Source: Anaerolineae bacterium
Lineage (GTDB): Bacteria; Chloroflexota; Anaerolineae; Aggregatilineales; Phototrophicaceae
DNA length: 20,966 nucleotides
NCBI GenBank assembly: GCA_028284565.1
Contig: JANQRM010000293.1
Location: forward strand, 1 to 20,966
Direction: 5' to 3'
Shown here piece by piece: positions 1-13,838 of this stretch. A model generated the notes under the pieces. The model was given only the letters and a program-made list of their open reading frames with translations, had not been told where the DNA came from and did not search any database. The position numbers and the translations under genes were made by a program. The stretch's first letter is position 1. Each line of letters starts with the position of its first letter.

Positions 1-930
1 GAATAGCTCATCAAACTTGGCATCACCAATCGAGGCACGCATGGTATCCGTTTCAATTGCAATAATCGCTGTCAGACACTCGGCAATCGTCAAGCCTTCC
101 AGCCACGATTTAATCGCTTCAGAGGCACTCACGCCGGGTTTGAGCTTCCAGTGCATAAAGCCCAAACGCACAAAATATTTGGGGTCTGCATACCCAAATT
201 CGAGGTCATCTGTCCATGCGACTTTCCAATCATCATGTTCATCTTTGTGATTGATATATTCATCTTTATAGTTGTGAGCATACCAGATACCCGCATTGAC
301 ACCGCGATTCTCGTTGGAGCGATTGACCTCATCGACAATATGTTGTCCAGTGGCTTCTTCTGTAGCATCAATTTCGGGTTTGCTCTCTGGTGTGCTACCA
401 CCAAACAGTTCATCCAGCTTGCCCATCGTCTGGCGACCAACCACACCATCATCATCTAAATCATGGTCGCCTTGAAATTTCTTGACTTTCTCTTTGGTCT
501 CTTTGCCATAGATTTCATCCGGTTCGCCTGTTTTGGCAGTTGAAATCGGCATAGGATAACCAAGATCGATCAGGGCTTGTTGCACAATGCCGACGGCGGG
601 ATGGGTGAGTGGGCGACGCATCGGTGGACTGTTATCATAGGCGGCTTCCAGGCGAGTATTCCCAGCAAATCGGGGTGAGGTGAGATTCATCGCTTTTTCT
701 TCGGGTGTCAGCGCACGCTGAATCTGACCAGCGACTGCGCCATCTGGATTGAGTTGACCACCTTCAATCAAGCGTTGGACTGCCTGATTGCCAAGTGTAT
801 TTTGCAAGTTAAGAATGTCATTTGTAGATTGTGAATCGGCTGAAGATTTATTCGACTTGTTGCTTGGCGAGGATGTTTGCTTCGATGACTTATTATCCTT
901 CTTTGTCTTTTGTTTCCGACGACTGTGCAT
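1..930 (-). CDS. Injection-system-associated modular protein (partial, C-terminus off the left edge)
   Basis: The frame is open from ATG at 930-928 to the window edge, giving 310 residues. The start has GGAAGG eight bases upstream, and an in-frame stop lies about 50 bases further upstream. Residues 1-35 are Lys/Ser/Asn-rich and probably disordered. Residues 42-54 carry the LQNTLGNQAVQRL motif, which is typical of the N-termini of proteins associated with extracellular contractile injection systems (eCIS). Residues 112-175 resemble a peptidoglycan-binding domain (VQQALIDLGYP, KKFQGDHDLDDDGVVG). Residues 205-310 form an unrecognised domain rich in Trp and acidic residues, ending with TIAECLTAIIAIE, where Cys285 could be a nucleophile. 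The same N-terminal motif occurs in the protein at 11850-13514. I infer an exported or injected cargo or wall-associated protein; the enzymatic role is not established. Confidence 0.85.
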   Translation of the reverse strand, partial: MHSRRKQKTKKDNKSSKQTSSPSNKSNKSSADSQSTNDILNLQNTLGNQAVQRLIEGGQLNPDGAVAGQIQRALTPEEKAMNLTSPRFAGNTRLEAAYDNSPPMRRPLTHPAVGIVQQALIDLGYPMPISTAKTGEPDEIYGKETKEKVKKFQGDHDLDDDGVVGRQTMGKLDELFGGSTPESKPEIDATEEATGQHIVDEVNRSNENRGVNAGIWYAHNYKDEYINHKDEHDDWKVAWTDDLEFGYADPKYFVRLGFMHWKLKPGVSASEAIKSWLEGLTIAECLTAIIAIETDTMRASIGDAKFDELF

Positions 931-3494: not shown

Positions 3495-3932
3495 ATGGGT
3501 TCTTTGTGGACTACTTTGGCGGTTAGTGATATAGATGAAGCAGTTGAATTCTACCAAAACAAACTCGGCTTTAGTGTTGATTTCACCGTACCAAATGAGG
3601 ATGGGAACATCTTCTTCGCAAGTGTTGAATTAGGTGAAAGTAACATCATGTTTGATTTACAACAGCCGCTAGAAATTGATGATTCAGTTCGTCGCAAAAT
3701 ACGAGCTGATATGCCTATCACACTTTTGTTACCAGACAGTATGGACATAGATACATTTTTTGCTCAGGTGAAAGGAAATGATGTTGAGGTAATCGCCAAT
3801 ATTGGGGATCGGTATTGGGGCAATCGTGAGTTCGCTATCCGCGATTTGAATGGTTATTGTATTGTCTTTGCGTCTTTCAAGAATGAAGTTGGTTTTGATG
3901 ACTTGAAGGAATTGGCTCAGGCACAAAACTAG
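3495..3932 (+). CDS. VOC-fold protein (glyoxalase/bleomycin-resistance superfamily)
   Basis: This 145-residue protein fits a single-chain VOC-fold protein made of two beta-alpha-beta-beta-beta units. The first unit shows the hallmark VSDIDEAVEFYQNKLGFSV (residues 10-28). The second ends in WGNREFAIRDLNGYCIVF, the usual metal-edge and C-terminal strand of VOC proteins. The Glu-containing metal ligand set of true glyoxalase I is not clearly present, so substrate and reaction are unknown. GAGGTG lies just upstream of the ATG. A second VOC gene follows after 31 bases on the same strand, so the two are probably co-transcribed. Confidence 0.85.
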   Translation: MGSLWTTLAVSDIDEAVEFYQNKLGFSVDFTVPNEDGNIFFASVELGESNIMFDLQQPLEIDDSVRRKIRADMPITLLLPDSMDIDTFFAQVKGNDVEVIANIGDRYWGNREFAIRDLNGYCIVFASFKNEVGFDDLKELAQAQN

Positions 3933-4357: not shown

Positions 4358-4996
4358 CTAGATATCATGCTTCATCACTGGTTCGATATAGATTTGTTGA
4401 GCCAATTGAAAGGCTTCTGGAACGGTTAGGATTGAAAAATCTGGTCGTTCTCCTATCCATTGCCTTGCCACTTCTTCTGAGGCAAAGAAATTGACTTGAC
4501 TACAAAATGTCCCTTCAACCCCTGCACTACAACCTTTAGCTGTCATAATCGATAACATGGTTTCGGTGGGTGCGTATGACTTAACTCCATGGGGGGTTAT
4601 CGTTACATCAATAGGTGTGTTGGTCACTGGACACGTAGACAAAACTTGAGCCGTTTTGCCAATGTAGGCTGGCAGAAACATGGTATCCAAAGCGCACCAC
4701 GCATATAGGGGTTTTCCATCAACTTCAAACTGATGGCGAGTTGGGGTAAAGGTTAAGGCAGCTCCAGTCAATTCACCCTTCTCATTGAACTCTGAACCCC
4801 CTTGTTGCATTTGATTAAAGGCGGTTGTTACTAACTCCACAGGGTCGCCCACCGCTTCAGCTAATTGTTGGGCAGACACAGGTTTTCCCTCTGCCAATAG
4901 ACGTGTGTAGGCTAAACAAAATCTGGCACTCTCTGGCGGTAGTTCTCGACCGCGTCGGTGTTGTAATAACTCAATCGTTTCGGCTAAATCAGGCAC
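4358..4996 (-). CDS. merB: Organomercurial lyase (alkylmercury lyase)
   Basis: MerB cleaves the carbon-mercury bond of organomercurials by protonolysis, releasing Hg(II). This 212-residue protein has the N-terminal winged-helix-like region (residues 1-80) and the catalytic core. YAWCALDT places Cys101 and Asp104 at the positions of Cys96 and Asp99 of the R831b enzyme. GTFCSQVNFFAS gives Cys165, equivalent to Cys159; the next residue, Cys in R831b, is Ser here. Cys122 matches the structural Cys117. All catalytic residues are therefore present. The start is GTG at 4996-4994, preceded by AGGAGG six bases away. It follows merR by 12 bases and is surely co-transcribed with it. No merA is in the window. 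Confidence 0.93.
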   Translation of the reverse strand: MPDLAETIELLQHRRGRELPPESARFCLAYTRLLAEGKPVSAQQLAEAVGDPVELVTTAFNQMQQGGSEFNEKGELTGAALTFTPTRHQFEVDGKPLYAWCALDTMFLPAYIGKTAQVLSTCPVTNTPIDVTITPHGVKSYAPTETMLSIMTAKGCSAGVEGTFCSQVNFFASEEVARQWIGERPDFSILTVPEAFQLAQQIYIEPVMKHDI

Positions 4997-5008: not shown

Positions 5009-5428
5009 TCAATTCGACTTCTTTTCACCACTAATTTGTATTAGATGACAGACACAGGTTTTCATCTGCACATCTTCAGGGAGTTGTTTTCCCGCTTCAT
5101 GAAGGGTTTTAATTTCGGTTCGTAGTCGCTCTAAATCTTGTATCCTCTGCTCAATTTCTCCAATCCGTTCTTCCATCAAATCCATAACGAATTGACATGG
5201 TGGTTCTTGGCGTTCCCGAAAAGCAAGGATTTCTTTTATTTCATTAATTCCAAAGTCCAACGCTCTCGACCGCTTGATAAACTGCAATCGCTCAACATCA
5301 GAATCATCGTATTGGCGATACTTGTTGTTAGCTCGATGGGGTGGGGGGAGTAGGGCAATCCGTTCATAGTATCGAATGGTTTCAGTTGAAACCCCTGTTT
5401 GTTGACTTAAAGCTCCAATTGAGTACAT
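5009..5428 (-). CDS. merR: MerR-family heavy-metal-responsive regulator
   Basis: This 139-residue regulator has the N-terminal winged helix-turn-helix (YSIGALSQQTGVSTETIRYYE, residues 2-22), the wing with KYRQYDDSDVERLQFI, and a long dimerisation helix (about 82-112). It ends with a metal-loop segment MKTCVCHLI. Cysteines are at 78, 125 and 127. Cys78 corresponds to the Cys82 region of Tn501 MerR, but there is no Cys at the place of Cys117, so the metal site may differ from classical Hg(II) MerR. I chose ATG 5428 because GGAG lies eight bases upstream; an in-frame TTG one codon earlier is less likely. It is transcribed with merB from a 19-bp-spacer promoter that it probably controls itself, and it likely also controls the divergent redox operon. 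Confidence 0.9.
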   Translation of the reverse strand: MYSIGALSQQTGVSTETIRYYERIALLPPPHRANNKYRQYDDSDVERLQFIKRSRALDFGINEIKEILAFRERQEPPCQFVMDLMEERIGEIEQRIQDLERLRTEIKTLHEAGKQLPEDVQMKTCVCHLIQISGEKKSN

Positions 5429-5451
5429 CAAATTTGCTCCGCTGTTTTTTA

Positions 5452-5482
5452 ATACTAAACCCTGTAGTCACTACAAGGTCAA
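5452..5482 (-). promoter_or_regulatory. MerR-type promoter/operator of merR-merB
   Basis: On the minus strand, TTGACC (5482-5477) and TAGTAT (5457-5452) are separated by 19 bases, the elongated spacer diagnostic of MerR-activated promoters. The spacer holds a near-perfect dyad, CTTGTAGT-g-ACTACAGG. The expected start of transcription is close to the merR ATG, giving a very short leader. Confidence 0.85.
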
Positions 5483-5490
5483 CCACTCTC

Positions 5491-5521
5491 TTGACCTTGT
5501 AGCCACTTCAACCCTTACACT
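5491..5521 (+). promoter_or_regulatory. Second, divergent MerR-type promoter for the redox/chaperone operon
   Basis: TTGACC at 5491-5496 and TACACT at 5516-5521 are separated by 19 bases. The left half-site CCTTGTAG is identical to that of the merR promoter, while the right half (ACTTCAACCC) has diverged. The two -35 boxes are back to back, 8 bases apart. This strongly suggests that the same regulator controls both directions, with weaker dyad symmetry on this side. Confidence 0.72.
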
Positions 5522-5545
5522 ATCCAAAAATAAAAAGGAAATCTC

Positions 5546-5796
5546 ATGACTGATCAATCTGTTATTGTCTATTCACAATCTAATTGAATGTTTTGCAACA
5601 GGGAGTTGACTACGTAGAGCGTGATGTTTCAGTCAGCGAGGAAGCATTTGAGGAACTCTCAAAACTTGGATTTATGACTACTCCTGTCACTGTCATTGAT
5701 AATGAAGTGGTCGTAGGTTTCGATAAACCAAAACTTGAAGAATTACTAACTTTGTCAGTAGAAGGTTCACGATGGAAGTCCAATTACAATCAATAA
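5546..5796 (+). pseudogene. Glutaredoxin-like gene with in-frame TGA at the redox cysteine (candidate selenoprotein), frameshifted
   Basis: ATG at 5546 has AAGGAA six bases upstream. The first frame reads MTDQSVIVYSQSN, then TGA (5585-5587), then MFCNR, ending at TAG 5615. The strand plus CxxC context of glutaredoxin is exact, with TGA replacing the first Cys, so a UxxC selenoprotein is implied. The rest of the fold lies in another frame from about 5593: LQQGVDYVERDVSVSEEAF, then FMTTPVTVIDNEVVVGFDKPKLEELL, with the cis-Pro TTPV motif. In E. coli Grx3 and NrdH, 11 residues separate the second Cys from the Gly before the next strand. Here TGC and GGA are 8 bases apart, so about 25 bases are missing. 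It is either a pseudogene by small deletion or an assembly error. The 3' end overlaps the next gene by 25 bases. Confidence 0.8.
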
Positions 5797-5975
5797 TTAC
5801 CTGTCCGAATTGTGGTCATGCACAAGAGGAAACCATGCCTACAGATAGTTGCCAGTTCTTTTATTCATGCTCGAACTGCAAGACGACCTTCAAACCAAAG
5901 CAAGGCGATTGTTGTGTGTTCTGCTCCTATGGCAGTGTCCCGTGTCCACCTGAACAAGCGAAAAAGGCGGTGTAG
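5772..5975 (+). CDS. GDCCVxC-domain small zinc-ribbon-like protein
   Basis: This 67-residue cytoplasmic protein carries four cysteine clusters: CPNCGH (11-16), DSCQFFYSCSNCK (25-37), GDCCVFC (45-51) and PCPP (57-60). It matches the known family of GDCCVxC-domain (seleno)proteins, some of whose members have selenocysteine at one of these cysteines. Here all positions are cysteine codons. A role in binding or handing over soft metals such as mercury is inferred from the Cys content and neighbours. GAAGG lies six bases upstream of the ATG. It overlaps the end of the glutaredoxin gene and abuts the next gene in a TAGTG arrangement, so translation is probably coupled. Confidence 0.82.
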   Translation: MEVQLQSIITCPNCGHAQEETMPTDSCQFFYSCSNCKTTFKPKQGDCCVFCSYGSVPCPPEQAKKAV

Positions 5976-6415
5976 TGGTGTCTCAAGAAAAGGTTGGTAG
6001 TTGCCCTCAATGTGGTAGTCAGGGACATAGTGTTGATAACGCAACAATCAAGTGCCTCATCTCAGTGAGCTTGCATCGCGTAGAGGATGTTAAACATCGT
6101 TTTTGCTCTGGTGCTAATTGCTCGGTAGTGTACTTGGCTGAAGATGGTTCTGAGGTATTTTTCACTACTGATTTACGAGAACGAGTCTATCAAAAAGAAC
6201 CTGATGCTGACGATGTTTTGGTCTGCTACTGTTTCTTTCATACACTTGGCGATATTCGATTGGGTATCTCAGAATCCGGGGCAAGCGAGATTGTGGATGA
6301 CATTAAGTTTGGTATCCAACAGGGTCATTGTGCTTGTGACTGGCGTAATCCAGAGGGTAGGTGCTGTCTTGGGAATGTTGTTAAGATTGTCAAATCTCAA
6401 ACTATGAAGGAATAG
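5975..6415 (+). CDS. CopZ-type iron-sulfur cluster-binding metallochaperone
   Basis: The product has 146 residues and eleven cysteines. CPQCGSQG (10-17) and the FCSGANCSVVYL segment (43-54) precede VCYCFFHT (83-90), GHCACDWRNPEGRCCLG (117-133) and a short basic tail. This order matches the N-terminal zinc and [2Fe-2S] domain of Archaeoglobus CopZ and the stand-alone metallochaperone family. The C-terminal HMA domain of full CopZ is absent. A role in electron supply or metal transfer next to MerB is inference. GTG at 5975 overlaps the previous stop by one base; GTG at 5978 is equally possible. AAGGCGG lies just upstream. It is the last gene of the plus-strand metal operon. Confidence 0.85.
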   Translation: MVSQEKVGSCPQCGSQGHSVDNATIKCLISVSLHRVEDVKHRFCSGANCSVVYLAEDGSEVFFTTDLRERVYQKEPDADDVLVCYCFFHTLGDIRLGISESGASEIVDDIKFGIQQGHCACDWRNPEGRCCLGNVVKIVKSQTMKE

Positions 6416-11684: not shown

Positions 11685-11849
11685 GGATGTTTTCACCACT
11701 CAGACATTGAATATTACCTCAATCCAATTAAATACAAACCAAGTTATGACCTGAGCTGTGCCATCTAGTTCATTAAGTTCTGTTACACTTAGTATGTCAG
11801 CATAATTCCTAAGCAAGCTCTCCAATAACATTATTTGGAGCCAAGTGGC

Positions 11850-13514
11850 ATGGCGTTACATCAGGCACGTGCGCCCAAAGACAAAAAGCAAGATGTGAAG
11901 CAGAACACGTCGTCAAGACAAGATGATGAGCTTCAACATGCCTCGCCAGACCTCCAAACCTTAGATCGCAAAACCATCTTACACCTACAAAGCACAATCG
12001 GGAATCGAGCAGTTCAACGCTTGTTGGCTACAAAACAGCAAGGTGCTAGCAGATCCCGTCCTATCCGCAATGTTCAACGTCAAGTCGCTGTGCGGGATGT
12101 CAACGAGGATAATCAGCTAGAGGGGAAAGAAGCCTCCGCGTTTGAGCCGTCGTTGAATGACCTTGCACCGCCACCTGCAGATAGCAATACAGAATCACCA
12201 ACCTTTGCCCCCGTCGAATCCGTCAATCCCATTTATCAGCCAGTCGAAGCGGATGAAACACAAAGCCCAGCTATTCAGACAACAACTATTATCGCCAGCC
12301 CATTACCAGCTTCAGCGATTCAAACAAAGGTGAAAACACCATCTATCCAGCGTGGCTTCTGGGATAGTGTTTCGAATGCCGCCAGTTCCGTCGGCAATGC
12401 GATTGGGAATGCGGCAAGTTCAGCAGGCAGTGCAGTTGGCAGTGCTGTAGGTTCAGCCGGGAATGCGGTTGGCGAGGCGGCAGGTGCTGTTGGGGGAGCT
12501 GTTAGTAATGCGGTGAGTGGTGTCGGTGGGGCTATCGGAGGAGCAGTTAATACTGTCGGTGGAGCGGTCAATCGCGGGAAAGAGTGGGTTTTTAACAATG
12601 CCTTGCGTCTGGCTGGTGTGCCAAAAAATGCGGTGATGTCATTGATTGGTCGGGCTGGGAGCGCGATGTTCCGCATTGTCGAAAATCCGATAGGCTTTGT
12701 CTCTTCCTTGATATCGTCGATTAAACAAGGTTTTACACAATTTGGTGGGAACATTGCGCGTCATTTGAAGAAAGGCTTATTTGGGTGGCTCTTTGGGACG
12801 TTGGAGAATGCAGGCATATCGCTCCCTGAGCGTTTCGATCTGAAGGGAGTTTTTTCCACCGTCTTCCAAGTGGTCGGCTTGACAGTTGAGAAACTCAAGG
12901 GTCGGCTTGCAAGGATGCTTGGTGAGCAGAATGCCGGAATGTTAGCAAAAGCCTATGAATATATCACCTCCTTCATGAAGGGCGGACTCACGGGTTTATG
13001 GTCGCGTCTCACGGGAGTCTTGACAAATCTAAAAACCGCAATCTTTGAGCCAGTCCGTAATTGGGTTGTAACGAACATCTTGCAAGGTGGGATACGAAAA
13101 ATTCTTGATCGGTTCAATCCGGTATCGGCACTGGTATCCGCGATCCAAACGATCTATCGGGTCGTGATGTTCTTCAAAAATCAAGCTGGACGGATAGCCT
13201 CGCTCCTTCAAGCCGTGCTGGGGTCCGCCAAACAGATTGCAACAGGTGCGATTGGGACAGTAGCAGGCAGGATTGAACAAGCATTGGGTCGGGCTATTCC
13301 ATTGGTGATCAATTTCCTATCGCGTTTCCTAGGACTGGGAGGGATTGCCGACAAAATCCGCAATCTGATTATGCGAGTCCGTGCACCAATTGAGCAAGTC
13401 ATCAACCGAGTATTGCAATGGATTGTGAGCAAAGTCAGACGGCTTATTGCCCATCGACAAGGAAACACTCAATCGGCGACTGCATCCCGAAAGGCAGAGC
13501 AGGTCAAGCAATAA
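11850..13514 (+). CDS. Injection-system-associated protein with Gly/Ala-rich segment and helical translocation-like region
   Basis: The product has 554 residues. Residues 46-59 (LQSTIGNRAVQRLL) carry the N-terminal motif typical of eCIS-associated proteins. Residues 60-165 are Pro/Ser/Gln-rich and disordered, with VQR/IQR tripeptides at 75 and 166. Residues 172-241 are a Gly/Ala/Ser/Val repeat with a period of about 4-8 (GNAIGNAASSAGSAVGSA). Residues 245-535 are long amphipathic helices including GLFGWLFG (309-316), ERFDLKGVFS and FLGLGGIADKIR. I recall such sequence from large eCIS and DUF4157-type proteins, where it precedes a toxin domain. Here the chain stops after this region, so no effector is visible. 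GGAG nine bases before ATG 11850 decides the start over TTG 11835. No DUF4157 (HExxH) domain is present. Confidence 0.85.
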   Translation: MALHQARAPKDKKQDVKQNTSSRQDDELQHASPDLQTLDRKTILHLQSTIGNRAVQRLLATKQQGASRSRPIRNVQRQVAVRDVNEDNQLEGKEASAFEPSLNDLAPPPADSNTESPTFAPVESVNPIYQPVEADETQSPAIQTTTIIASPLPASAIQTKVKTPSIQRGFWDSVSNAASSVGNAIGNAASSAGSAVGSAVGSAGNAVGEAAGAVGGAVSNAVSGVGGAIGGAVNTVGGAVNRGKEWVFNNALRLAGVPKNAVMSLIGRAGSAMFRIVENPIGFVSSLISSIKQGFTQFGGNIARHLKKGLFGWLFGTLENAGISLPERFDLKGVFSTVFQVVGLTVEKLKGRLARMLGEQNAGMLAKAYEYITSFMKGGLTGLWSRLTGVLTNLKTAIFEPVRNWVVTNILQGGIRKILDRFNPVSALVSAIQTIYRVVMFFKNQAGRIASLLQAVLGSAKQIATGAIGTVAGRIEQALGRAIPLVINFLSRFLGLGGIADKIRNLIMRVRAPIEQVINRVLQWIVSKVRRLIAHRQGNTQSATASRKAEQVKQ

Positions 13515-13634: not shown

Positions 13635-13754
13635 ATGCTGACCGAAACACAAGATGGTCATTCATATGAACACAATCTCTATGTCCCGGCTGGCATTTCC
13701 AAGCTATACAAACTCTACCAGATGTCACCCTCTAAAGTTCTGAAAAAGTCATGA
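13635..13754 (+). other. Short coding-like frame, possible gene remnant (39 codons)
   Basis: ATG at 13635 opens 39 codons ending in TGA. The frame is open upstream to a TAA at about 13583. The predicted peptide (MLTETQDGHSYEHNLYVPAG and onward, ending SKVLKKS) has a composition like a globular protein rather than random sequence. No ribosome-binding site is seen. It may be the remnant of a degraded gene or a chance frame. Confidence 0.25.
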
Positions 13755-13767
13755 ATTTTTTGTAACA

Positions 13768-13791
13768 GAATTGTTAGTTTGAGAACAATTC
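13768..13791. repeat. Inverted repeat (8-bp stem, 8-base loop)
   Basis: GAATTGTT at 13768-13775 and AACAATTC at 13784-13791 form a perfect stem with an 8-base loop. It lies 48 bases downstream of the acyltransferase stop in the minus direction, without a T-tract. Confidence 0.55.
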
Positions 13792-13838
13792 GTGGCATCA
13801 TGTGAAGAAGGTAAATGGAATGGGTTTATAGCAGCATG

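Follow-up and report, generated by a model that had tools for sequence, protein, structure and literature searches.

A probably inactivated selenocysteine glutaredoxin gene as the first gene of a MerR-type metal operon from the Anaerolineae (Chloroflexota)

Glutaredoxins that contain selenocysteine (Sec) are known from the Sargasso Sea data set (PMC1088965), and a UxxC glutaredoxin with Sec is known from GOS data (PMC2398784). A 2026 review (PMC13188914) lists Grx UxxC and the UXX-star families 1 and 2, assigns a HUGP/GUXX-star fusion to NF041212 and a GOS protein to NF041374, and states that the Sec residues of UXX-star proteins may be metal ligands, with roles that are still open. We analysed a stretch of 20,966 nucleotides of contig JANQRM010000293.1 from an Anaerolineae bacterium (here called the window), for which an earlier note had proposed a selenoprotein glutaredoxin. 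The kind of gene is already known, as Sec-glutaredoxin UxxC and as UXX-star, and the window holds a probably inactivated member of it. Like the UxxC Sec-glutaredoxins of PF00462, it belongs with proteins of the glutaredoxin fold in which the first redox residue is encoded as Sec and a Cys stands three residues further on, and in its relatives the UGA is immediately followed by a SECIS-like hairpin. Unlike them, the window copy is devoid of the SECIS stem, of eight codons and of the continuous frame, and some of its relatives adjoin MerR-type regulators and metal genes. The members of the UXX-star families (NF041212, NF041211 and NF041114) are likewise small, resemble glutaredoxins and have their Sec in the same position, and NF041212 matched all eight full-length relatives scanned at E ≤ 0.001, as did TIGR02196. 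However, the relative L009 obtained 56.7 bits with NF041212, where the cut-off is 66, and fitted the YruB-type family TIGR02196 better, yet still under the cut-off (73.1 of 88.55).

The third system to which the locus can be compared is the mercury resistance operon (merR, merB, merA), with which the window shares a MerR-family regulator, MerB and divergent promoters with 19-base spacers. In contrast to such operons, merA, merT and merP were absent among the eight neighbouring open reading frames of the window that were scanned, and the regulator is slightly nearer to CadR-PbrR than to MerR, both being under their cut-offs. In the open-licence literature no paper was found that joins selenocysteine, glutaredoxin, mercury and Chloroflexi, and a search there for a selenoprotein glutaredoxin with MerR or mercuric gave none on topic, as judged by title. 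For selenoprotein pseudogenes with a SECIS the same literature gave PMC5029168, which in the passages concerned uses 'pseudogene' for selD only, and the deep-Sep paper makes no mention of glutaredoxin, mercury, Chloroflexi or pseudogene.

On the forward strand of the window, a ribosome-binding site AAGGA (5535-5539) precedes an ATG (5546-5548), from which the N-terminal piece of a glutaredoxin, MTDQSVIVYSQSN, is encoded (5546-5584). This piece ends in VYSQSN and is followed by TGA (5585-5587) and ATG TTT TGC, so that both the ribosome-binding site and the reading VYSQSN-TGA-MFC, as given by the earlier note, were borne out. The same note gave the coordinates 5546-5620, and an open glutaredoxin gene with a single TGA as its sole interruption was not borne out. 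Behind the TGA the frame encodes MFCNRELTT (5588-5617) and is closed after these nine sense codons by TAG (5615-5617), and the C-terminal piece of the glutaredoxin is found at 5584-5796 on the same strand, out of frame with respect to the ATG at 5546. The span 5546-5620 covers the gene start only, and the window has no frame that continues across the TGA and stays open until the fold is complete. The C-terminal piece matched PF00462 with 27.8 bits (cut-off 22.9; E = 2.8e-6), only from profile position 21 onward, and reached 30.5 bits with the UXX-star profile NF041212 (cut-off 66), the piece being half a protein. Its 70 codons are free of any additional stop or frameshift.

Relatives were collected in order to compare the residue at the TGA position. 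A protein search with the C-terminal piece gave 149 candidates, corresponding to 147 proteins, and the 120 of these that were listed are 42 to 73 residues long, except for one of 99 residues; the closest of the 120 is 78% identical to the window piece, and the top three (P0001-P0003) lie at 73 to 78%. Among 27 fetched proteins (from the set P0001-P0120), 13 start with MFC, right behind the TGA, ten start slightly later at KEFLS or similar and four otherwise, so that 23 begin at the Sec codon or a few residues behind it. The three best matches start immediately behind the codon for the Sec position. Starts of this kind are typical of gene callers that meet an internal stop. When one genome per species was scanned, 134 relatives emerged, and in the best 80 of these 134 loci, when read upstream of the match, the first redox position is an in-frame TGA in 58 (two of them, L005 and L075, assigned under a looser rule), a Cys codon in 20 and unreadable in two (L070 and L079), which answers the question, raised with the original proposal, whether homologues have Cys or TGA there. 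All 23 top-ranked loci (L001 to L023) have TGA. With 58 of 80 relatives showing TGA and 20 showing Cys, the TGA is more than chance. A profile built from eight TGA forms matched 133 of 298 sampled Anaerolineae genomes at E ≤ 1e-12; the 15 places with more than 100 bits, in 14 genomes, have one TGA apiece, and the subsequent places, with 91 bits or less, are mixed. On this comparison, the TGA of the window is to be read as the inherited Sec codon of a glutaredoxin family and as neither a chance triplet nor a fresh nonsense mutation.

In a few genomes two glutaredoxin-like genes with in-frame TGA stand in tandem, as at positions 3617 and 3890 of L007 and at 3819 and 4087 of L059, where a UADC or UADS type stands behind a UMFC or ULFC type. 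Such pairs were also encountered in G003, G502, G457 and G642, as if two selenoproteins act together.

The region behind the TGA was studied in an alignment (A3) of 51 bases from the TGA onward from 42 genes, namely 36 of the 58 TGA loci, the second gene of L059 and five loci from the profile search of the 298 Anaerolineae genomes. Members were chosen by the UxFC motif, L057 (UHYC) being included in addition, and 22 of the 58 TGA loci were left out, including the UxFC loci L041 and L049. Columns 19-37 of A3 form a stem of seven pairs with a loop of five bases that contains an invariant G. In this stem 93.9% of the cells are paired as compared to 90.5% in shuffles (reached by 0 of 500), whereas 31.6 to 65.6% are paired if the stem is slid to other positions. 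The covariation score amounts to 0.169 versus 0.100 in shuffled alignments, which take no account of relatedness and of which 0 of 500 reached this value. Most of the change resides in pair 20-36 (UA 16, CG 13, AU 3, UG 3, other 7), and the single pair of A3 in which both sides changed is not above what shuffles give (384 of 500). RNAalifold found the same stem, shifted by one pair. A covariance model of the 42 genes (R1) matched nine of ten TGA loci outside the training set with 27.9 to 53 bits, gave no match for the remaining one (L050) and matched none of five Cys loci at the corresponding site. From these alignments, the hairpin directly behind the TGA of the relatives resembles a bacterial SECIS. 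In the window, R1 aligned to 5585-5619 with 19.8 bits by its flanks only, skipping the hairpin part, and a SECIS stem-loop directly behind the TGA is absent. A search of the window with Rfam at E ≤ 1 gave three matches, all under their gathering scores. A second weak match of the SECIS model, with 12.8 bits, lies at 13752-13802, where one frame reads UIFCNR; again the hairpin part was skipped, a glutaredoxin is absent around it, and we take it as probably due to chance.

When the window was aligned with five relatives using MAFFT, a single gap appeared inside the gene, amounting to exactly 25 bases that are missing in the window between 5595 and 5596 (+ strand), with a joint whose placement is ambiguous within about 5594-5603. 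Compared to the relatives, the window has lost the whole SECIS stem together with most of helix 1 (VKEFLS in the relatives), in all eight codons, and since 25 is not a multiple of three, the observed change of frame results. Because stem, codons and frame are lost, no Sec-glutaredoxin can be made from the window copy as sequenced: in the absence of a SECIS, ribosomes should halt once 13 residues are joined and the TGA is reached, and even with Sec inserted translation would end at the TAG at 5615. The C-terminal 70 codons have not acquired another stop or frameshift, so that the loss is either recent or an artefact. When columns 12-19 of A3 were compared with shifted ones as a test for slipped mispairing, the mean match peaked at an offset of 25 (3.26 of 8); as the neighbouring offsets 24 (3.0) and 23 (2.79) score close to it, slipped mispairing is favoured only slightly. 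Elsewhere, L070 (2850-3190) and L079 (3700-4080) retain only C-terminal remains, in which the active-site half is gone and the SECIS model found no match, and this indicates that the glutaredoxin gene has decayed in other genomes too. In L005, the TGA and the SECIS are kept and a recognisable in-frame first strand is absent.

The reading that we prefer, with a probability of roughly 0.7, is that the window feature is an inactivated gene for a UxFC-type selenocysteine glutaredoxin, the first in a MerR-regulated metal operon of an Anaerolineae (Chloroflexota) bacterium. The intact protein would have reduced or handled metals or metal-thiol adducts by means of a selenol at its first redox position. 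The loss of 25 bases would be a real deletion, perhaps caused by a slip across the hairpin; translation would now end with the TGA, and the GDCCVxC and CopZ-like genes further along, each with a start of its own, would presumably continue to work.

The strongest competing explanation, which we regard as unlikely though deserving weight, holds that the genome possesses an intact Sec-glutaredoxin and that the gap is an artefact of assembly or sequencing or the allele of a minority strain. The gap was seen in this one sequence only, the nearest of the 120 listed proteins being no closer than 78%, and what is missing is a hairpin. Polymerases can skip hairpins. The otherwise undamaged C-terminal codons fit such an origin as well. 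However, a stem of seven base pairs is a weak obstacle, the neighbouring genes that were checked are open, and broken copies such as L070 and L079 occur in other genomes too.

That a functional selenoprotein is made from the window sequence, as had originally been proposed, appears very improbable to us, although the TGA and its UxxC context are conserved, a ribosome-binding site is present and Sec machinery occurs in close genomes. Against it stand the TAG that closes the frame nine codons after the TGA, the absent SECIS stem, the missing residues of helix 1 and the remainder of the fold in another frame. The proposal of a selenoprotein thus stands for the family, in which 58 of 80 loci have TGA, a SECIS-like hairpin follows and close genomes have the machinery, and fails for the window copy, where SECIS stem, eight codons and frame are gone. 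Least probable of all is an ordinary Cys-glutaredoxin pseudogene in which the Cys codon mutated to TGA, for although a Cys is found there in 20 of 80 related loci, the 23 best-ranked loci all have TGA and the three best protein matches begin right behind that codon.

The surroundings agree with the preferred reading of an inactivated gene at the head of an operon. A 19-base spacer is a mark of MerR-family promoters. A promoter-like site of this kind (TTGACC, 19-base spacer, TACACT; 5491-5521, + strand) lies before the glutaredoxin remains and the genes that follow them, and a divergent one (TTGACC, 19-base spacer, TAGTAT; 5452-5482, - strand) is directed towards the regulator gene; a loose scan of the window for promoter spacing gave ten sites including these two, the others being five on the + strand and three on the - strand. 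Downstream are the Cys form of a GDCCVxC domain protein (5772-5975, +; NF041374, 104.2 bits, cut-off 40) and the Cys-Cys form of a CopZ-like iron-sulfur metallochaperone (5975-6415, +; NF047645, 104.9 bits, cut-off 100; PF18423). The statement that the GDCCVxC family has selenocysteine members agrees with the match to NF041374, a '(seleno)protein' family, the window protein itself having Cys. On the other strand are the MerR-family regulator (5009-5431, -), for which CadR-PbrR was the best NCBIfam match, slightly above MerR and with both under their cut-offs, and the organomercurial lyase MerB (4358-4996, -; NF009710, 200.6 bits, cut-off 193; PF03243). MerB is accompanied by a MerR-family regulator with a divergent promoter, as in a mercury operon. 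The genes for MerB, the regulator, the GDCCVxC protein, the CopZ-like protein and the acetyl-CoA synthetase have open frames and match their families or homologues over the full length. As an aside, among the MerB-like matches listed for Chloroflexota, nine of 44 contain one in-frame TGA (for example in G082, G260 and G404), and some of these may encode selenoproteins akin to the MerB-like SaoL.

Neighbours of the relatives were searched with tblastn within 2.5 kb, the full 2.5 kb on both sides being available for 31 of the 58 TGA loci and 14 of the 20 Cys loci. Among the 58 TGA loci, MerR-type regulators were found at nine, heavy-metal ATPases at five, MerA-like and CopZ-like proteins at two each and a MerB-like protein at one, and the MerA-like neighbour of L018 exceeds the MerA cut-off (511.7 versus 454.45). 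Any of these five kinds was present at 17 of 58 TGA loci as compared to 0 of 20 Cys loci, a contrast that is biased because the queries came partly from TGA loci. A Pfam scan of 20 proteins encoded beside ten TGA loci assigned seven to metal or MerR types and eight to other kinds and left five unmatched, so that with 13 of 20 in the latter two groups the metal link is not general. Gene neighbourhood of this kind is no more than suggestive of a link between the TGA loci and metal handling. Similarly, binding of mercury by a selenol at this site, as the earlier note imagined it, may be supposed and fits the metal-gene neighbours of some relatives.

The host was placed by means of the acetyl-CoA synthetase of the window, which among the matches listed shows 80 to 84% identity to proteins named as Anaerolineae, Aggregatilineales or Phototrophicaceae, with one (81%) named Spirillospora; nearer matches among those listed are 85 to 89% identical, and one fragment reaches 96%. 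Neither MerB nor the gene of 718 residues had allowed such a placement. By the acetyl-CoA synthetase, the five closest of the 298 sampled Anaerolineae genomes are G636 (86%), G667 (84%), G627 (83%), G572 and G254 (both 82%). Within the family of G636, 73 of 98 genomes, the five closest among them, have SelB over the cut-off, and in the other 25 no SelB match exceeded it. SelA and tRNA-Sec were both over the cut-off in all nine genomes asked, namely the five closest and four carriers of TGA loci; in control genomes tRNA-Sec passed in five of 14, so that it is not strict on its own, and SelB in two of 14. The best tRNA-Sec match in each of the nine genomes scored 64.7 to 74.7 bits, as against 50.2 for the highest of all further matches in the nine. 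SelB was also over the cut-off in 14 of the 16 genomes behind the loci, the two others being G014, with the Cys form L034, and G013, with the TGA form L030.

A profile of the Sec-glutaredoxin, which works in other Anaerolineae, found no match at E ≤ 1e-10 in any of the 98 genomes of the family of G636. The window copy is unusual for this family and was perhaps gained from outside it. In viral contigs, an exact pattern of 30 bases had no match and the A2 alignment no relative, although the latter search was ill suited to TGA forms, since one of its two peptide patterns has Cys at the Sec position. Among plasmid records there was a single match of 34%, in a record of 2.6 Mb.

These findings demonstrate that reading a TGA in place of a Cys codon can be right on the family and wrong on the gene at hand, and that SECIS and frame need to be checked before a selenoprotein is called. 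They also point to an under-annotated clade of Sec-glutaredoxins, for which the protein catalogue has short entries only among the 120 listed. Tentatively, and with more doubt than confidence, we propose a wider picture in which a widespread UxFC clade, known from short catalogue stubs and with at least one intact member (L009) under every NCBIfam cut-off shown, would act in metal or mercury handling, partly from MerR-type operons, and would have been lost repeatedly; the loss in the window might then have taken exactly the SECIS hairpin and left a selenoprotein fossil beside Cys-only operon partners that are open. Where genes of the clade adjoin MerA, MerR-type regulators or metal-pumping ATPases, a role of the selenol towards metals is directly testable.

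Elsewhere in the window, the proteins encoded at 1-930 (- strand) and 11835-13514 (+ strand) share a similar stretch, LQNTLGNQAVQRLI and LQSTIGNRAVQRLL, which is reminiscent of the eCIS core motif, known from proteins that contractile injection systems carry as cargo.
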